This document shows, one piece after another, positions 2,758 to 49,636 of a stretch of 64,000 bases of DNA. The position numbers and the translations under genes were made by a program. Each line of letters begins with the position of its first letter. The first letter of the stretch is position 1. Source of the DNA: Candidatus Rokuibacteriota bacterium (GTDB lineage Bacteria; Methylomirabilota; Methylomirabilia; Rokubacteriales; CSP1-6); contig QHSU01000054.1 in assembly GCA_003220535.1 (NCBI GenBank), positions 62,001-126,000 on the forward strand. The letters run 5' to 3'. The notes below the pieces were generated by a model. That model was not told where the DNA came from. It was given only the letters and a program-made list of their open reading frames with translations, and ran no database searches.

Positions 2758-3066
2758 TTACGAAAGATCGATCTCGACCGCGCTGCCGTTCACCCGGACC
2801 GGGTAGATCGACACCGCCAGACCCGGCGCGACGCGGCAGGCGCCGCTCGCGAGATCGAAGTCGTACCCGTGCCACGGGCACACGACGGCGTCGCCCTCGA
2901 GCCAACCTTCGGCGAGCGGCCCATCCTCGTGGGGGCAGGTCGGGCTGCACGCGAAGAAGCGTCCGTCGCCGGCGTTGAAGACGGCGACCGTCAGGCCGTC
3001 GCGCTCGATCAGCGTGCCCTGGCCGACACCGATGTCGGCGACCTCGGCGACCTTGACGTACGCCAT
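2758..3066 (-). CDS. Rieske [2Fe-2S] ferredoxin-like protein
   Basis: A 102-residue single-domain Rieske protein. The cluster ligands are visible as C44-x-H46 in CPHEDGPL and C63-x2-H66 in CPWHGYDF. There is no signal peptide, so it is cytoplasmic and resembles the soluble ferredoxins of ring-hydroxylating dioxygenases or NirD-like subunits. It would carry single electrons to a partner oxygenase or reductase; none is encoded nearby. Its ATG shares one base with the TGA stop of the upstream selenoprotein gene (TGATG), so the two are translationally coupled and may act in the same redox process. Confidence 0.9.
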   Translation of the reverse strand: MAYVKVAEVADIGVGQGTLIERDGLTVAVFNAGDGRFFACSPTCPHEDGPLAEGWLEGDAVVCPWHGYDFDLASGACRVAPGLAVSIYPVRVNGSAVEIDLS

Positions 3067-3644
3067 CAGCGGCGCGTCTTCTTCAGCGCGGCCTCGATGA
3101 TCGCCCGGAACTCCTCAGTGGTGGTGGCGCCGACGACCAGCTGGTCGTTGACGAGGAACGTGGGCGTGCTGTTGATCCCGAGGGCCTGGGCCTGGGCGAT
3201 GTCCCGCTCGACGTCGGGCGCGAACCGCCGCTCGTCGAGGCAGCGAGTGAACTCGTCACGGTCGAGGCCGACCTCGGCCGCGTAGCGCAACAGATCGGGG
3301 CGCCGGAAGGCGGGTTGCCCCTCGAAGAGCCGATCGTGGTACGGCCAGTATTTTCCGACGGCGCCGGCGCAGCGCGCCGCTTCGTGCGCGGGCCGCGCCA
3401 GTGTGTGCATCGGTAGCGGTCGGTCCTTGAAGATGAGGCGGACGCGACCCTCGTACTCCTGGAGAATCTGGGCCAGCGACCGCTGGACCTGTTGGCAGTA
3501 CGGTCACTGATAGTCGGAGAACTCCACGATGGTCACCGGCGCGCCGGCCGGACCTTTGGTCATGCTCGGATGCGTCGTGAGCTCGACCTGCGCGCGCGCC
3601 CTCGTCGTCGACAGGGCGAGGCACAGCAGCAGGGACAGGATCAT
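3066..3644 (-). CDS. DsbA-like thiol-disulfide selenoprotein (U-P-Y-C active site)
   Basis: Read through an in-frame TGA (plus positions 3504-3506), this gives a 192-residue DsbA/thioredoxin-fold protein. It has a signal peptide (LLLCLALSTTRARA, cleavage near 18), then TIVEFSDYQ, then the active site U47-P-Y-C50, a helical insertion and a cis-Pro loop (NSTPTF). Relatives have FSDYQCPYC at this point, so selenocysteine replaces the nucleophilic Cys. Homology continues without a break on both sides of the TGA. It should be an exported oxidoreductase or disulfide isomerase. A hairpin with a GGTC loop follows 23-26 nt after the TGA. The ATG at 3644 gives a good signal peptide but has only a weak Shine-Dalgarno. 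It is coupled to the Rieske gene. Confidence 0.88.
3470..3489 (-). promoter_or_regulatory. Candidate bacterial SECIS element of the DsbA-like gene
   Basis: Counting from the base after the TGA on the minus strand, CCAGC (+18 to +22) pairs with GCTGG (+27 to +31) around a GGTC loop. Two further G-C pairs lie beyond a single mismatch. Distance and a GG-containing apical loop resemble the E. coli fdhF element, whose loop I recall as AGGUCU. Folding was done by eye. Confidence 0.55.
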
Positions 3645-3755
3645 GCCGAACGGCCTGTAGTACACTCGCGGCGACCGACCGGGGCAGAGCGACACGCACC
3701 TCACGGACCGAGGATACGATGCGCCCGTGCGCATCGCAACGGGCAGGGAGGAGCC

Positions 3756-4214
3756 ATGGACGATCTGATCGGGCTCGTGTTCGGCACCTATCCCTCGTGG
3801 TCCCATCTGGTGGTCCGCGTCGTGCTCGGCATCATCTTTTTTGCCCACGGCGCTCAGAAGACGTTCGGCTGGTTCGGCGGCCATGGACTGTCGGCGACCA
3901 TCGGAGGCTTCCGGCAGATGAGCGTTCCCCCCGCCGCCACCGTCATCGCCGCGTTCACCGAGTGCTTCGGGGGCCTCGCCATGATCGTGGGCCTCCTGGC
4001 TCGCCCGGCAGCGCTCGGGCTGGTCGCGGTGATGGTCGTGGCCATCGTGAAGGTCCACGGGAAGCACGGATTCTTCCTCAACTTCTCGATGGCCCCGGGC
4101 AAGGGCCACGGGTACGAGTACAACCTGGCGTTGATGGCGATGGCGCTGTCCATCCTCATCGGCGGCGCCGGCGCCATTTCGATCGACCGACTGATCGTGC
4201 CCTTCGGCGACTAG
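3756..4214 (+). CDS. DoxX family membrane protein
   Basis: A 152-residue four-helix membrane protein of the DoxX family. Diagnostic stretches are RVVLGIIFFAHGAQKTFGWFGG near the start (split here by the first helix), the FTECFGGLAMIVGLLARPAA segment and the KVHGKHGFF loop. DoxX-like proteins lie in the inner membrane and have been linked to thiosulfate:quinone oxidoreduction and to redox homeostasis, but most have no known activity. The ATG at 3756 is preceded by GGGAGGAG. It is divergent from the selenoprotein DsbA gene across about 110 nt, so a shared redox-linked control is possible but not shown. The holin-like gene follows after 6 nt. Confidence 0.85.
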   Translation: MDDLIGLVFGTYPSWSHLVVRVVLGIIFFAHGAQKTFGWFGGHGLSATIGGFRQMSVPPAATVIAAFTECFGGLAMIVGLLARPAALGLVAVMVVAIVKVHGKHGFFLNFSMAPGKGHGYEYNLALMAMALSILIGGAGAISIDRLIVPFGD

Positions 4215-4220
4215 GTTCCC

Positions 4221-4586
4221 GTGGGCTTCGTGGCGCGTGTGATCGTGAACGCCCTGATGATCTATCTCGCGGCCCGTATCGTGCCGGGCATCGTGCTGCG
4301 CGGCGAGCCGCTCTGGCCGGCGCTGCTCGCCGGGCTCGTCCTGGCGCTCGTCAACGCGGTGGTGCGTCCCCTGCTGGTCCTGCTCACGTTCCCGCTGACG
4401 CTCGTGACGCTCGGTCTCTTCCTGTTCGTGCTGAACGCGTTCTGCCTGTGGCTGACGTCGGTGATCGTGCCGGGGTTCGACGTCCACGGCTTTCGGGCGG
4501 CGTTCCTCGGCGCGCTCCTGATCACGGTCGTGAGCTGGGCGCTGACGGTGTTCGTCAGCGACAGCGGGCGCCTGGGCCGGCTCTAG
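4221..4586 (+). CDS. Phage-holin-IV-like (PhageHol4_2) small membrane protein
   Basis: A 121-residue protein with four hydrophobic segments and the family motif NAVVRPLLVLLTFPLT (about 45-60). It belongs to the widespread chromosomal family named after phage holin superfamily IV; most members are housekeeping membrane proteins of unknown role, and no phage gene is near. The start is GTG at 4221, six bases after the DoxX stop, so the two genes probably form one transcript. Confidence 0.82.
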   Translation: MGFVARVIVNALMIYLAARIVPGIVLRGEPLWPALLAGLVLALVNAVVRPLLVLLTFPLTLVTLGLFLFVLNAFCLWLTSVIVPGFDVHGFRAAFLGALLITVVSWALTVFVSDSGRLGRL

Positions 4587-28572: not shown

Positions 28573-29304
28573 TTACCGCGGAAAGAGAAAGAACTGCAAG
28601 CCCATGAGGACGAGCAGCGCCTCGATGATCGTCAGAAAGACGCGATCGCTCATCCGATCGAGCAGGCGACGTCCCGCCCACGCGCCCGCGAACATCGTGC
28701 TCCCGAGCACGACGCCGACCGCCAGCGTCTCGCCCGTCACGAGCGCGTAGCGCGTGAGCGTGGCCCCGCGCGCGATGTGCATCACCAGGGCGCACACCGC
28801 CTCGGTGCCGATGTACGCGTTGCGGCGGAGACCGTAGGCGAGGAAGAAGGGTGTGTTCAGCGGCCCGGTGGTGACCACGAGCCCTGACAGGAGACCGGTG
28901 AATGCGCCGAGGGCGGGGAAGTGGCGGAGGCGCATGCGGAAGAGATCCGTGGCCAGCAGCCGGCGCAGCGGCACCGAGGCGACGAGGAAGACGCCGACGA
29001 ACCGACCGAGCAACTCGGCCGGGGTGCCGGCGTAGATCGCGGCGCCGAGCACGGTGGCCGGCACGGCGCCGAGCGCGAATCGGATGACAACCGCGCGATC
29101 GACCTCGCCGCGACTCCACCAGATCCGCGAGAGGTTTCCGAGCAACATCGTCACCGTGAGTACCGGCACCGCCGAGCGGACGCCGACCGCCCACGCGACG
29201 AGCGGCAGCATGATGATTCCGGCGCCGAACCCGGCGACGCCACCGACGACCGAGGCCACGAGCGCGCCGAAGACCAGGACCACCCAACCGATCGGATCGG
29301 GCAT
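28573..29304 (-). CDS. TauE/SafE family sulfite/anion exporter-like membrane protein
   Basis: A 243-residue integral membrane protein of the TauE/SafE (DUF81) family: eight hydrophobic segments with VVGGVAGFGAGIIMLPLVAW near the start and GAFTGLLSGLVVTTGPLNTP in the middle. Family members export organosulfonates, sulfite or sulfoacetate, but many have no known substrate. The ATG at 29304 lies 19 nt from the divergent MFS start. Its 3' end is close to the thioesterase gene on the same strand. Confidence 0.88.
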   Translation of the reverse strand: MPDPIGWVVLVFGALVASVVGGVAGFGAGIIMLPLVAWAVGVRSAVPVLTVTMLLGNLSRIWWSRGEVDRAVVIRFALGAVPATVLGAAIYAGTPAELLGRFVGVFLVASVPLRRLLATDLFRMRLRHFPALGAFTGLLSGLVVTTGPLNTPFFLAYGLRRNAYIGTEAVCALVMHIARGATLTRYALVTGETLAVGVVLGSTMFAGAWAGRRLLDRMSDRVFLTIIEALLVLMGLQFFLFPR

Positions 29305-29323
29305 GTCGTGCCATCATACGGCG

Positions 29324-30496
29324 ATGTCCCTCTGGATCGCCGCGGCGGGCGCGCTCCTGGTGTCGCTCGATTCCATGATGAACATCGCATTCCCCGCGAT
29401 CGCGACGGCGTTCGCGGCCCCGCCCGAGCGGGTGCGTTGGGTCATCGTCTGCTACGTGCTGACGTATGCGATCACGTCGTTCGCCGGCGGTGCCGCCGCC
29501 GACCGCCTCGGCCACGTCGTGGTGTTCCGGACGGGTGTCGGCCTGAGCGTGATCGCGTTCGTGATGGGCGGCACGGCCGGCGGCTTCGGCCGGCTGCTCG
29601 TCGCGCGCGTCGTGCAGGGCGTCGCGGGCGGTCTCGTCTACGGCACCGCGCCCGCGCTTGCGACCGCCGGGGCCCAGGCCAGCGTGCGCGGCCGACGACT
29701 CGGCTTCCTGAACGGGGCGATGGGCATCGGTGCCCTGGGGTCGCTTCCGGCCGGCATGCTCGTCGAGCGCTTCGGATGGCGAGCGGTCTTCCACGTCCGC
29801 GTGCCGCTCGCCCTCGGCGTCCTGGTCTGGGCGGCGGCGGTTGGGCCCACCTCGGTCCCGAGCGATCGCCGCCCCGTCCCCCTCGCGGACATCGTGCGCG
29901 GCCCGGTGCTGCGCGCGAGCGCGCTCTCCTTCGTGGCCCGAGGCGCGATCTTCGCGATCTGGCTGCTGGTGCCGTTCTACCTCGTCGACGCGCGCGGGCT
30001 CGGTGCCTCCGTGGGCGGCATGCTCTTCATCCTGACGCCGCTCGGCACGGCGATCGCGGCCCCGCTCGCCGGCCGCCTCGCCGACCGCGTCGGTTCGCGC
30101 GCGCCCGCGCTGGCGGGGCTCCTGATCGAGGGCGTCGGGCTCATTCTCCTTGGCCTCGTCGACGGGGTGACGCCACTCGGCTGGGTGGCGCTCGCCCTTT
30201 TCGCCGCCGGGTTCGGGCTCGGATTTTTCGAGGTCCCCAACATGGCGACCATCATGGCGGCGTTTCCCCCGGGCCAGCAGGGGGCGGCGGGCGGCTTGAC
30301 GTTCCTGGCCCGCACGCTCGGGGTCGTCGCGGGTGTCATGGGGCTGGGCGCGATCGTCGCCGCCCGCACCGCGAGCGTGGGGTTCCTCGGGGCGTTCACC
30401 GAGTCGGTCCTGGTGGCGGGGCTCGCCGTCGGCATCGCCGCGCTCGTCGGGCTCGTCGGGCGGCGTTCCCCGCGATCGGCGGGCGTCGGACGGTGA
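29324..30496 (+). CDS. MFS transporter (drug/H+ antiporter-like)
   Basis: A 390-residue Major Facilitator protein. It has the DHA-type N-terminal D and motif A region (LVSLDSMMNIAFPAIATAF, then GGAAADRLGHVVVFRTG) and helical repeats through LGFFEVPNMATIMAAFPPGQ. Twelve helices are likely. Its substrate is unknown. I set the start at ATG 29324, since upstream in-frame sequence has no MFS similarity. Confidence 0.88.
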   Translation: MSLWIAAAGALLVSLDSMMNIAFPAIATAFAAPPERVRWVIVCYVLTYAITSFAGGAAADRLGHVVVFRTGVGLSVIAFVMGGTAGGFGRLLVARVVQGVAGGLVYGTAPALATAGAQASVRGRRLGFLNGAMGIGALGSLPAGMLVERFGWRAVFHVRVPLALGVLVWAAAVGPTSVPSDRRPVPLADIVRGPVLRASALSFVARGAIFAIWLLVPFYLVDARGLGASVGGMLFILTPLGTAIAAPLAGRLADRVGSRAPALAGLLIEGVGLILLGLVDGVTPLGWVALALFAAGFGLGFFEVPNMATIMAAFPPGQQGAAGGLTFLARTLGVVAGVMGLGAIVAARTASVGFLGAFTESVLVAGLAVGIAALVGLVGRRSPRSAGVGR

Positions 30497-30565: not shown

Positions 30566-31603
30566 ATGGCGGTCGCGCTCACGTCCAAGCGGTACCGGGT
30601 CCAGGATGTCTCCGACGCGATCGAGTTCTGCTTCCAACAAGGCTGGACCGACGGCCTCCCGGTCGTCCCGCCCACGCCCGAGCGGGTGAGCGCGATGCTC
30701 GAGGCGGCTCGTCTCGATCCGAAGCACCAGATCGCCTTCATCACCCATCGGTCGGTATCGGTCACGGCCGAGAAGGTCGCGGTCAATGCGGTCATGGCGG
30801 GATGCAAGTCCGAGTACATGCCGGTGGTGGTGGCGGCGGTGGAAGGCATCGGCGACCCGGCCTGGAGCTACCACGGGCCCGGCACCTCGACCGGCGGCGC
30901 CGCAGTCCTCATGATCGTCAACGGACCGATCGCGAAAGAGCTCGAGATCAACGCGGGCGACAACCTCTTCGGACCGGGCTGGCGCGCCAACCTCACGATC
31001 GGGCGCGCGTTGCGTCTGGTGATGCGAAACGTCTGCGGGTCGCTGCCGGGGCTCCTCGACCGGGGGACGCTCGGCCACCCCGGAAAGCTTTCCTACGTGA
31101 TCGCGGAGAACGAGGCCGAGAGCCCGTGGACGCCGCTGCACGTCGAGCGCGGGTTTCAGCCGAGCCAGAGCACCGTCACGGTGATGGCCGCCGAATCGCC
31201 GCATCAGTCCTACAATCAGCTCTCGGGGACCGCCGAGGGCGTGCTGACGACGCTCGCCGACTCGATGAGACTCTCCGGCGGCGCCGGTCGGCAACCCCAG
31301 TACGTCGTCACTCTCGCCGGCGAGCACATGCGGACGATCGCCGGCAGCGGCTGGGGCAAGAAAGAGATCAGGCAGTTCTTGTTCGAGCACACCCAGAATT
31401 CCCTCGAGCACCTCAAGCGCACCAATCGGATTCCCGGGGCGATCCAGCCGGGTGACGACGCGAAGCTGCGACCGCTCGTCGCGTCTCCCGACGACATCCT
31501 CGTCGTCGCCGCCGGCGGCCGGGCCGGGGCGTTCTCGGCGTTCATCCCGGGCTGGGGCGGTGCGCGTTCCTCGCAGGCCACGACCAAGGAGGTCAGGCGA
31601 TGA
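30566..31603 (+). CDS. Conserved protein of unknown function, coupled to the UGSC selenoprotein
   Basis: A 345-residue protein, not recognised by me. It has no signal peptide and no clear membrane segment. It contains several well-formed segments that look conserved: FCFQQGWTDGLPVVPPTPER, VNAVMAGCKSEYMPVVVAAV, HGPGTSTGGAAVLMIVNGP and VCGSLPGLLDRGTLGHPGKL. The two Cys residues in FCFQQG and MAGCKSEY and a third in NVCGSLPG could be redox or metal ligands. The ATG follows AAGGAGG. Its TGA overlaps the ATG of the UGSC selenoprotein gene, so the proteins are made together and probably interact. Confidence 0.85.
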   Translation: MAVALTSKRYRVQDVSDAIEFCFQQGWTDGLPVVPPTPERVSAMLEAARLDPKHQIAFITHRSVSVTAEKVAVNAVMAGCKSEYMPVVVAAVEGIGDPAWSYHGPGTSTGGAAVLMIVNGPIAKELEINAGDNLFGPGWRANLTIGRALRLVMRNVCGSLPGLLDRGTLGHPGKLSYVIAENEAESPWTPLHVERGFQPSQSTVTVMAAESPHQSYNQLSGTAEGVLTTLADSMRLSGGAGRQPQYVVTLAGEHMRTIAGSGWGKKEIRQFLFEHTQNSLEHLKRTNRIPGAIQPGDDAKLRPLVASPDDILVVAAGGRAGAFSAFIPGWGGARSSQATTKEVRR

Positions 31604-32130
31604 TCGAAATTCTGGATCCCACCGTCGAGGCGACCACGCAGCCGATCGCGTACGTGGATCGGCCGGGGTCGTTGATGGGCAAGCGTATCGGGCTCATCGA
31701 GAACACGAAGTTCAACTCCGACAAGCTCCTGCAAAGGATCGGCGAAATCCTCAAGACGGAGTATGGCGCCGCCGAGACGCGCATGTTCCGCAAGCACAAC
31801 TCCTCGGTCCCGGCGCACGAGGAGATCATCCAGGAGGTGCGCAAGACCTGCGACGTCATCGTCGCTGGCGTCGGAGACTGAGGGTCCTGCTCGTCGGGCA
31901 GTGTGCTCGACGGAATCCTGCTGGAGAAGAACGCGGTGCCCTCGGCCTCGATCGTGACGGATGTTTTCGAGAAGACCGCCCGCGCCATGGCCGAGCAATG
32001 GGGAGTGCCGACCTACAAGTTCCTGATGATGCCGCACCCGATCGCGAACCTGACCGAAACGGAGCTCGATCGGCGCGCCCGGGAGATCGTGCCCGAAGTC
32101 GTCAAGCTGCTCCTGCAGGGTCAGGAATAG
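31600..32130 (+). CDS. UGSC-family selenoprotein
   Basis: Read through the TGA at 31879-31881, this is a 176-residue protein with selenocysteine at residue 94 in VAGVGDUGSCSSGSVLDG. The U-G-S-C motif names the family. N-terminal features are VDRPGSLMGKRIGLIENTKF, and the second half holds TARAMAEQWGVPTYKFLMMP. Both halves are in one frame, with continuous protein-like sequence. The motif is a U-x-x-C redox centre. The function is unknown. A 9-bp hairpin with its loop 20-22 nt past the TGA lies in the coding sequence. It overlaps the upstream partner gene (ATGA). Confidence 0.93.
31892..31912 (+). promoter_or_regulatory. Candidate bacterial SECIS element of the UGSC gene
   Basis: CGTCGGGCA (from 31892) pairs with TGCTCGACG (to 31912) as a 9-bp stem including one G-U pair, with a GTG loop at +20 to +22 after the TGA. 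Folding was done by eye. Confidence 0.6.
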
Positions 32131-43078: not shown

Positions 43079-43815
43079 CGGGTGAGTCGCTCGGCGTCGC
43101 GGTCGCGTTCAGCGCGGGGCTCTTCTCGTTCCTCTCGCCCTGCGTGCTGCCGCTCTTTCCTTCGTACGTGTCGTTCATCACCGGCATGTCGGTCGCCGAC
43201 CTCACGACGGATCTCTCGGCCGTCGCGCGGCGGCGGGTGCTGATCCATGCGCTCGCGTTCGTCCTGGGCTTCTCGCTCGTCTTCGTCGCGCTCGGCGCGT
43301 CGTTCAGCGCCGCCGGGCAGTTCTTGCTCGACTACCGCGACTGGATCCGGCGCATCGGTGGGGTGCTCATCGTGATCTTCGGGCTCTACATCGTCGGACT
43401 CCTGAAGATCGGGTTCTTCGCCCGCACACAGCAGTGGCAGTTCAGGGAAAAGCCCGCCGGGTACCTGGGCTCGTTCGCGGTGGGTATCACGTTCGCCATC
43501 GGCTGGACCCCCTGCGTGGGTCCGATCCTCGGCGCTATTCTTTCGCTCGCCGGCACGGCGGAGACGGTCCAGCGCGGGATCGGCCTCCTGGTCGCCTATT
43601 CGGCCGGTCTGGGGCTGCCGTTCTTGATCTCGGCGGCGGCGCTCGGCCCCTTTCTCGCGTTCTTCAAGCGGTATCGGCGGTTCATTCCCGTGGTCGAGCG
43701 CGCGGCGGGAGTGGTCCTCGTCGTTGTCGGCGTCCTCGTCTTCACGAACTACTACGTCGTCCTGAACGCCTGGGCGATTTCGCTCACCCCGGACTGGCTC
43801 CTCAAGCGGCTGTAG
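43075..43815 (+). CDS. ccdA: CcdA-type thiol:disulfide electron transporter
   Basis: A 246-residue CcdA/DsbD-beta-like protein with six hydrophobic segments and the two essential cysteines C23 (LSPCVLPLFPSY) and C147 (GWTPCVGPILG). It carries reducing equivalents from cytoplasmic thioredoxin across the membrane. The GTG start overlaps the TlpA stop. The pair forms a compact ccdA-tlpA unit, and its reducing power could also serve the exported DsbA-like selenoprotein encoded 40 kb away (inference). Confidence 0.93.
   Translation: MTGESLGVAVAFSAGLFSFLSPCVLPLFPSYVSFITGMSVADLTTDLSAVARRRVLIHALAFVLGFSLVFVALGASFSAAGQFLLDYRDWIRRIGGVLIVIFGLYIVGLLKIGFFARTQQWQFREKPAGYLGSFAVGITFAIGWTPCVGPILGAILSLAGTAETVQRGIGLLVAYSAGLGLPFLISAAALGPFLAFFKRYRRFIPVVERAAGVVLVVVGVLVFTNYYVVLNAWAISLTPDWLLKRL

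Positions 43816-48568: not shown

Positions 48569-49636
<1,068 letters not shown>

Follow-up and report, generated by a model that had tools for sequence, protein, structure and literature searches.

Comparative evidence for a predicted DsbA-like selenoprotein with a U-P-Y-C active site in Candidatus Rokuibacteriota

Published examples of DsbA-like proteins whose active-site pair begins with selenocysteine (Sec), giving a UxxC motif, date back to 2005. In the parts of the literature considered here, the Sargasso Sea study of that year reports nine such sequences under COG2761 (PMC1088965), the GOS study of 2008 assigns 63 selenoprotein sequences to DsbA 1 and 18 to DsbA 2, both within PF01323 (PMC2398784), and DsbA-like UxxC selenoproteins stand in a 2022 review (PMC9312934). 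The parts of a 2026 review drawn on here list a 'DsbA-like protein form 1', again PF01323, describe the functions of DsbA-like and similar selenoproteins as largely uncharacterized and mention a Methylomirabilota MAG with 63 predicted selenoproteins (PMC13188914). The gene analyzed here shares with the 2005 and 2008 sequences, as those papers describe them in part, a DSBA domain, Sec as the first residue of the active-site pair and a SECIS-like hairpin behind it. The published sets, from which we set our group apart by their descriptions, came from ocean metagenomes, whereas the present group occurs widely across one bacterial family, with a Rieske gene attached in 25 of 45 genomes. An earlier note on this DNA had stated that known DsbA-like proteins use Cys at the position in question; the UxxC forms published in 2005 and 2008, as far as these papers were drawn on (PMC1088965, PMC2398784), are exceptions, and the novelty claimed in that note was too strong given the first of them. 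This kind of selenoprotein is thus already known, and the predicted gene is a well-supported addition to it.

Among protein family models, the best NCBIfam match is NF041057 (108.1 bits, residues 24-185), the Rcas_1661 family thioredoxin-like (seleno)lipoprotein, whose name allows both Cys and Sec members. The score lies under the curated cut-off of 190 bits, the match begins at position 78 of the 247 positions of the model and, judged by eye, our protein shows no clear lipobox. An AlphaFold model, in which Cys replaced Sec, had a mean pLDDT of 94.1, and the top solved folds found with Foldseek were DsbA/TsdA of Corynebacterium diphtheriae, a Silicibacter thioredoxin-like protein, Wolbachia alpha-DsbA2 and BdbD. 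The same fold is seen in C. diphtheriae DsbA/TsdA (4pwo; TM-score by query length 0.77, 32% identity) and in Bacillus subtilis BdbD (3eu3; 0.78, 28% identity), and Wolbachia alpha-DsbA1 (3f4r, 3f4t) is also matched (0.75, 20 to 21% identity). Where our protein has Sec, the alignment places an active-site Cys in 4pwo and 4pwp; BdbD presumably has Cys there as well, and we take the active site of Wolbachia alpha-DsbA1 to be of the Cys type too. The latter protein has a further Cys pair (C97A/C146A in the title of 3f4t), to be compared with C92 and C135 of our protein. Alignment A2 (22 rows) shows both residues as invariant and alignment A3 (45 rows) as nearly invariant, and they probably form a structural disulfide.

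The gene lies on the minus strand at positions 3066-3644 of the window, by which we mean the whole 64,000-nucleotide stretch that was analyzed. It runs from an ATG at 3644 to a TGA stop at 3068-3066 and would encode 192 amino acids including Sec47; by translation, the plus strand of 3066-3644 is not the coding strand of the DsbA-like frame. The sole break in this 192-residue frame is a TGA at 3506-3504 (minus strand), located where a CPYC active site would have its first Cys (VEFSDYQ-U-PYCQQ) and aligned with the redox Cys of homologues, such that Sec would come first in a UPYC version of the UxxC motif. Two Pfam domains span Sec47, namely Thioredoxin_4 (PF13462; 120 bits, residues 25-185) and, with a lower score, DSBA (PF01323; 84.3 bits against a gathering score of 25.6, residues 38-182). 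As both matches cross the TGA, the two sides belong to one domain. When taken alone, the part after the TGA (from an ATG at 3410) still matches Thioredoxin_4 with 64.1 bits and DSBA with 55.2 bits, while the part before it matches no Pfam domain. The earlier note had thus rightly recognized a TGA at the nucleophilic Cys with homology on both sides in a single frame, here assigned to the minus strand. It had also expected ordinary annotation to split the gene, and the standard-code ORF listing indeed yields 3066-3410 and a 327-residue ORF at 3504-4487, the latter mostly antisense over a DoxX gene. Reading the two parts as one corrects the annotation of a gene that is cut in two by usual ORF calling.

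To place the gene among its relatives, we considered 57 genomes of the family, the source genome among them, of which 56 gave matches to the DsbA-like protein. Orthologues with TGA at residue 47 were found in 45 of the 57 genomes (the source included), orthologues with TGT or TGC at this codon and the same neighbourhood in three (L148, L149 and L150), and no usable orthologue in nine. These nine include a genome in which the downstream part alone is in frame (G036, left out) and two with a different Sec protein (G006 and G007). One locus (L045, from G019) was kept among the 45 although its N-terminus is broken and its matched stretch contains an additional TGA. In all, 50 loci were extracted, comprising the 45 Sec orthologues, the three Cys orthologues and two more distant Sec proteins (L151 and L152). 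The proteins of the 44 other TGA-bearing genomes share 51 to 78% identity with that of the window, and the frame after the TGA is open in every Sec orthologue, up to the contig end. The terminal stop of the 45 is TGA in 34, TAG in seven and TAA in three, and is cut off in one. At residue 47, homologues carry Cys or Sec and none of the close relatives showed any other residue; in alignment A3, where U is written as C, this column reads C in 45 of 45 rows. The placement of the TGA and its recurrence in other genomes thus go beyond chance.

These data bear on whether the TGA could be a sequencing error, or the mark of a pseudogene stopping at residue 46. A single MAG could carry such an error, and at other places TGA acts as a normal stop, the last codon of this very gene being one example. 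Nonetheless, the same codon is TGA in 44 other genomes at the identities given above, the frame after it is open in each (that of L045 is broken before the TGA), homologues have Cys in this column and the hairpin described below is frozen, which makes an error or a pseudogene exceedingly improbable.

Behind the TGA lies a SECIS-like stem-loop (3471-3488, minus strand), with a core stem of 3486-3482 paired with 3477-3473 and a GGTC loop at 3481-3478 whose start is separated from the TGA by 22 nt; read along the strand, the TGA is followed by 17 bases and then by CCAGC-GGTC-GCTGG. We scored the hairpin at fixed alignment columns with a rule made for this analysis. All five core pairs are present in 45/45 Sec orthologues, in 0/3 Cys orthologues (where three, three and four of the five are formed) and in 0/68 Cys homologues. 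The loop of all 45 Sec orthologues has four bases with G as the second, the sequences being GGTC (26), AGGT (12), GGGC (4) and GGAC (3). For a longer stem of seven pairs, 94.0% of the cells are paired, three pairs show double changes (12 cells in total) and the covariation is 0.116 versus a shuffled mean of 0.049. In none of 500 shuffles were paired cells, double changes or covariation as high, although it should be considered that shuffling ignores relatedness. Sliding the partner strand lowered the paired cells to 11.1-44.1%, with covariation at -2 still at 0.086. Other measures of this stem are less distinctive: further pair types are unexceptional (reached by 217 of the 500 shuffles), the two outer pairs are unpaired in 8 and 11 of the 45, the outer pair at columns 20 and 35 is a mismatch in the window's own sequence, and the RNAalifold covariation term is almost nil (-0.04).

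The codons under the hairpin provide independent support for it. Considering the 100 columns in which at least 30 rows share one amino acid, the largest excess of codon identity was found for R55 (CGG in 33/33), L57 (CTG in 45/45) and V53, all within the hairpin, while elsewhere in the gene several codons are used for R and L. The mean excess was 0.42 for the four conserved columns of residues 53-58 and 0.05 outside. In terms of folding, a 61-nt stretch including the UGA has a different minimum-energy structure, with a non-significant z of -1.38. The ribosome, however, would cover the UGA region; with this region omitted, the core hairpin is the fold in 41 of 45 Sec orthologues, L030, L033, L040 and L048 being the others. 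Since a loose SECIS rule is also satisfied by 20 of the 68 Cys homologues and by two of the three Cys orthologues, the weight of the argument lies entirely with the conserved position and the frozen codons. A scan of the window against Rfam gave no match at the gathering score. A SECIS prediction had been proposed as a check in the earlier note, and by our own rule this check yields a conserved hairpin with G in a four-base loop after the TGA. Recoding of the TGA to Sec is supported by this comparative evidence.

The source assembly (7.18 Mb, 93.77% complete, 8.15% contamination), in which the window lies on the contig labelled C1, contains what Sec insertion calls for, with tRNA-Sec (69.8 bits), SelA (592.7 bits), SelB (354.3 bits) and SelD (334.9 bits) all over their cut-offs. 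The first three are found together on another contig (C107), while SelD lies within the window (matched stretch 48596-49537, plus strand). SelD itself contains an in-frame TGA, read as U11 in the context CAGUASK, with an 8-bp hairpin and a GATC loop behind it. As this gene and its own TGA are on the contig of the DsbA-like gene, Sec use is tied to that contig despite the contamination. The nearest named loci in our contig search come from Candidatus Rokuibacteriota MAGs, and the source is a bacterium of soil type. Among the 57 family genomes, 51 have a SelB match over the cut-off. G025, a genome with the Cys form, has no such match, whereas G021 and G034, likewise with the Cys form, do; its lack in five Sec-form genomes (G012, G022, G041, G042 and G052) is taken as reflecting assembly gaps.

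With this machinery at hand, one can also judge whether the TGA is given a sense by a general change of code (to Cys or Trp) or by unspecific read-through, rather than being read as Sec. The frame would be open under any such code. However, TGA still serves as the terminal stop in 34 of the 45 orthologues, this gene among them, the genome has Sec machinery, and at these columns the hairpin is complete in the Sec orthologues only. We thus consider a code change or read-through very improbable, and put the probability that the gene encodes a Sec-containing DsbA-like protein, as judged from sequence, at about 93%. The DsbA-like UPYC selenoprotein proposed in the earlier note is in this way supported by the Cys or Sec of homologues at residue 47 and by the conserved SECIS-like hairpin.

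Two further TGA-containing frames of the window were noted. A UGSC family selenoprotein (31456-32127, plus strand; NF041046, 147.7 bits against a cut-off of 125) has a TGA at 31879-31881 that would place Sec in DUGSCSSG, and under the loose SECIS rule a hairpin loop lies 18 nt past it. In a second case (28576-29451, minus strand; TGA at 29316-29314), the composition is coding-like on both sides, but by eye the TGA comes just before the likely ATG of a membrane protein, and this is probably no selenoprotein.

As to history, in a 65-row tree the 48 orthologues group in a single starred clade, within which the Cys forms occupy two places, and the Sec and Cys labels need four changes over the whole tree. 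The two more distant Sec proteins fall outside this clade, so that within the family Sec has two separate placements in the tree. Two Sec-to-Cys losses within the 48-row clade fit best with a hairpin remnant in one Cys orthologue, although by the tree itself gains are also conceivable. This orthologue (L150, from G034) retains four of the five core hairpin pairs, which looks like the remnant of a lost SECIS and favours loss of Sec there. Having 45 Sec and three Cys versions in one family provides natural pairs for measuring the effect of Sec on a probably exported disulfide enzyme.

In terms of gene order, an NYN gene lies near 42 and a LAB_N gene near 39 of the 45 Sec orthologues; at the three Cys orthologues, aminotransferase and LAB_N genes are found about equally far away. 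Near the two distant Sec proteins (L151 of G006 and L152 of G007), none of the tested neighbour genes was found; these are different DsbA-like proteins with a TGA in the same motif, and their downstream regions do not fit the hairpin rule. DoxX was considered as a conserved redox neighbour and rejected, being present in 29 of the 50 loci only.

A wider search of the phylum (95 genomes including the 57 of the family) gave matches to the DsbA-like protein in 86. For the 38 genomes outside the family, the matches listed were stop-free except for one weaker match each in two genomes, both DsbA-like with one TGA (G062:C6 30626-31135 and G079:C130 2946-3296). It should be noted that the contig search included DYQCPYCQ among its patterns and therefore favours Cys homologues, so the 68 Cys and 12 Sec loci that it returned should not be taken as a frequency. 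Eleven of these Sec loci match a family locus in alignment score and were not counted again. A Sec form with 75% identity over 105 residues (L064) lies at the edge of a contig that was binned as Chloroflexi, possibly misbinned Rokubacteria, and was left out of the Sec counts.

The start of the protein is hydrophobic and contains ARAQ (3588-3644, minus strand), which by eye is a probable signal peptide. Several orthologues (L133, L134, L141-L145 and L147) show, again by eye, a lipobox-like Cys, and together with the hydrophobic N-terminus this suggests that the predicted selenoprotein is probably exported, as the earlier note had proposed. Just 5' of the start lies a conserved box, GAGTGTACTACA (3656-3667, minus strand; by eye), and at the same upstream place many orthologues have GAGTSTACTAYA or GAGTSTACACC (by eye). 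GTGTAC is conserved upstream, and we considered GTG at 3665 as the true start. This was rejected, since some orthologues (e.g., L032, L037, L043, L133 and L134) by eye have GTC there, and the box is likelier a promoter element, perhaps one of these bacteria.

Directly downstream of the selenoprotein gene is that of a small Rieske [2Fe-2S] protein (2758-3066, minus strand; 61.7 bits), the A of its ATG being the last base of the selenoprotein stop TGA. A Rieske gene is next in the 25 Sec orthologues mentioned above, 22 of them with the one-base overlap. In 19 of the 45 it is absent although the contig extends far enough (the contig of L051 ends too early), and it was found at none of the three Cys orthologues. 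The coupling to a Rieske gene described in the earlier note is therefore real in the 25 orthologues, this one included, but those 19 speak against the Rieske and Sec proteins being linked in general, and such a link is rejected. By eye, the Rieske protein has no hydrophobic start, so the two proteins may act in different compartments, and the link is at most one of coupled expression.

In terms of chemistry, the protein is probably an exported thiol-disulfide oxidoreductase of the DsbA/BdbD family. SelB, tRNA-Sec and the hairpin after the UGA would insert Sec at residue 47, which in the model starts the helix of residues 48-63. The U47 selenolate could then attack a disulfide (or a peroxide), C50 would resolve the mixed selenenylsulfide, and the substrate may be held by the cis-Pro loop TP(160-161), which just precedes the strand of residues 162-165. 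The fast disulfide or peroxide reductase suggested in the earlier note is a hypothesis of this sort.

Selenols react fast with peroxides, which counts for an alternative, in which the selenoenzyme would act as a peroxidase or handle metal(loid)s instead of working on protein disulfides. The fold also resembles copper-tolerance ScsC (e.g., at Foldseek ranks 11, 14 and 22). Against this, the proteins matched best by sequence and by fold bear the names of thiol-disulfide enzymes and no recognizable metal or peroxide genes are among the six neighbours scanned, and we consider such an activity unlikely.

For a thiol-disulfide enzyme, the direction of the reaction depends on its partners. DsbB was detected in 0/57 family genomes and VKOR in 24/57, and by hand count VKOR occurs in 17 of the 45 Sec-form genomes (in three by the CPLU form described below) and in all three Cys-form genomes. 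In the source genome no VKOR was detected, leaving the DsbA-DsbB/VKOR pathway without its partner there, an absence that is uncertain at 93.77% completeness. The window holds a DsbD_TM-domain membrane protein (matched stretch 43096-43740, plus strand; 62.9 bits), which might supply electrons to an exported thiol enzyme and which we take to be CcdA-type; the second DsbD_TM match of the genome, on another contig, scores 27.2 bits against a cut-off of 27.1.

The protein could alternatively be the disulfide-forming oxidase of the cell, recycled by VKOR or by an unknown quinone-linked partner. Its nearest solved folds include DsbA and BdbD, and the VKOR counts given above are in keeping with this role. 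On the other hand, a CPYC-type motif favours a lower redox potential, DsbB is lacking from the 57 genomes and VKOR was not detected in the source genome. Sec likewise favours a lower potential, as the part of the literature considered here reports lower redox potentials for Sec proteins than for their Cys homologues where measured (PMC2933860), and we regard a main oxidase role as rather doubtful. With no detectable DsbB or VKOR, a carrier of the presumed CcdA type and the lowering of the potential by Sec, the balance tips slightly towards a protein maintained in the reduced state that acts as a reductase or isomerase.

A further TGA-containing gene was seen among the VKOR-like membrane proteins of the family. 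In three loci (L155 of G014, L156 of G026 and L157 of G008), the TGA stands at the second Cys of a CxxC motif, giving CPLU, and a hairpin, CGCGGC-GGTC-GCCGCG, lies behind it. With C written for U, the L155 protein matches Pfam VKOR (46.8 bits against a cut-off of 27.5) and no NCBIfam model. VKOR and vitamin K are unmentioned in the main texts of the 2026 review (PMC13188914) and of the GOS paper, which does not mention Rieske either (PMC2398784), and the main text of the deep-Sep paper (PMC12013277) makes no mention of DsbA, VKOR, vitamin K, Rieske, Rokubacteria or Methylomirabilota. No VKOR-like selenoprotein of this kind was found in the papers searched. The CPLU protein is thus a possible new selenoprotein family, and if true, a VKOR-type selenoprotein would be new as such. 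One may tentatively imagine a Rokubacteria-type extracytoplasmic thiol relay with more than one selenium-bearing member, the UPYC DsbA-like and the CPLU VKOR-like protein, in some genomes. All three genomes with a CPLU gene also carry the Sec form of the DsbA-like protein.
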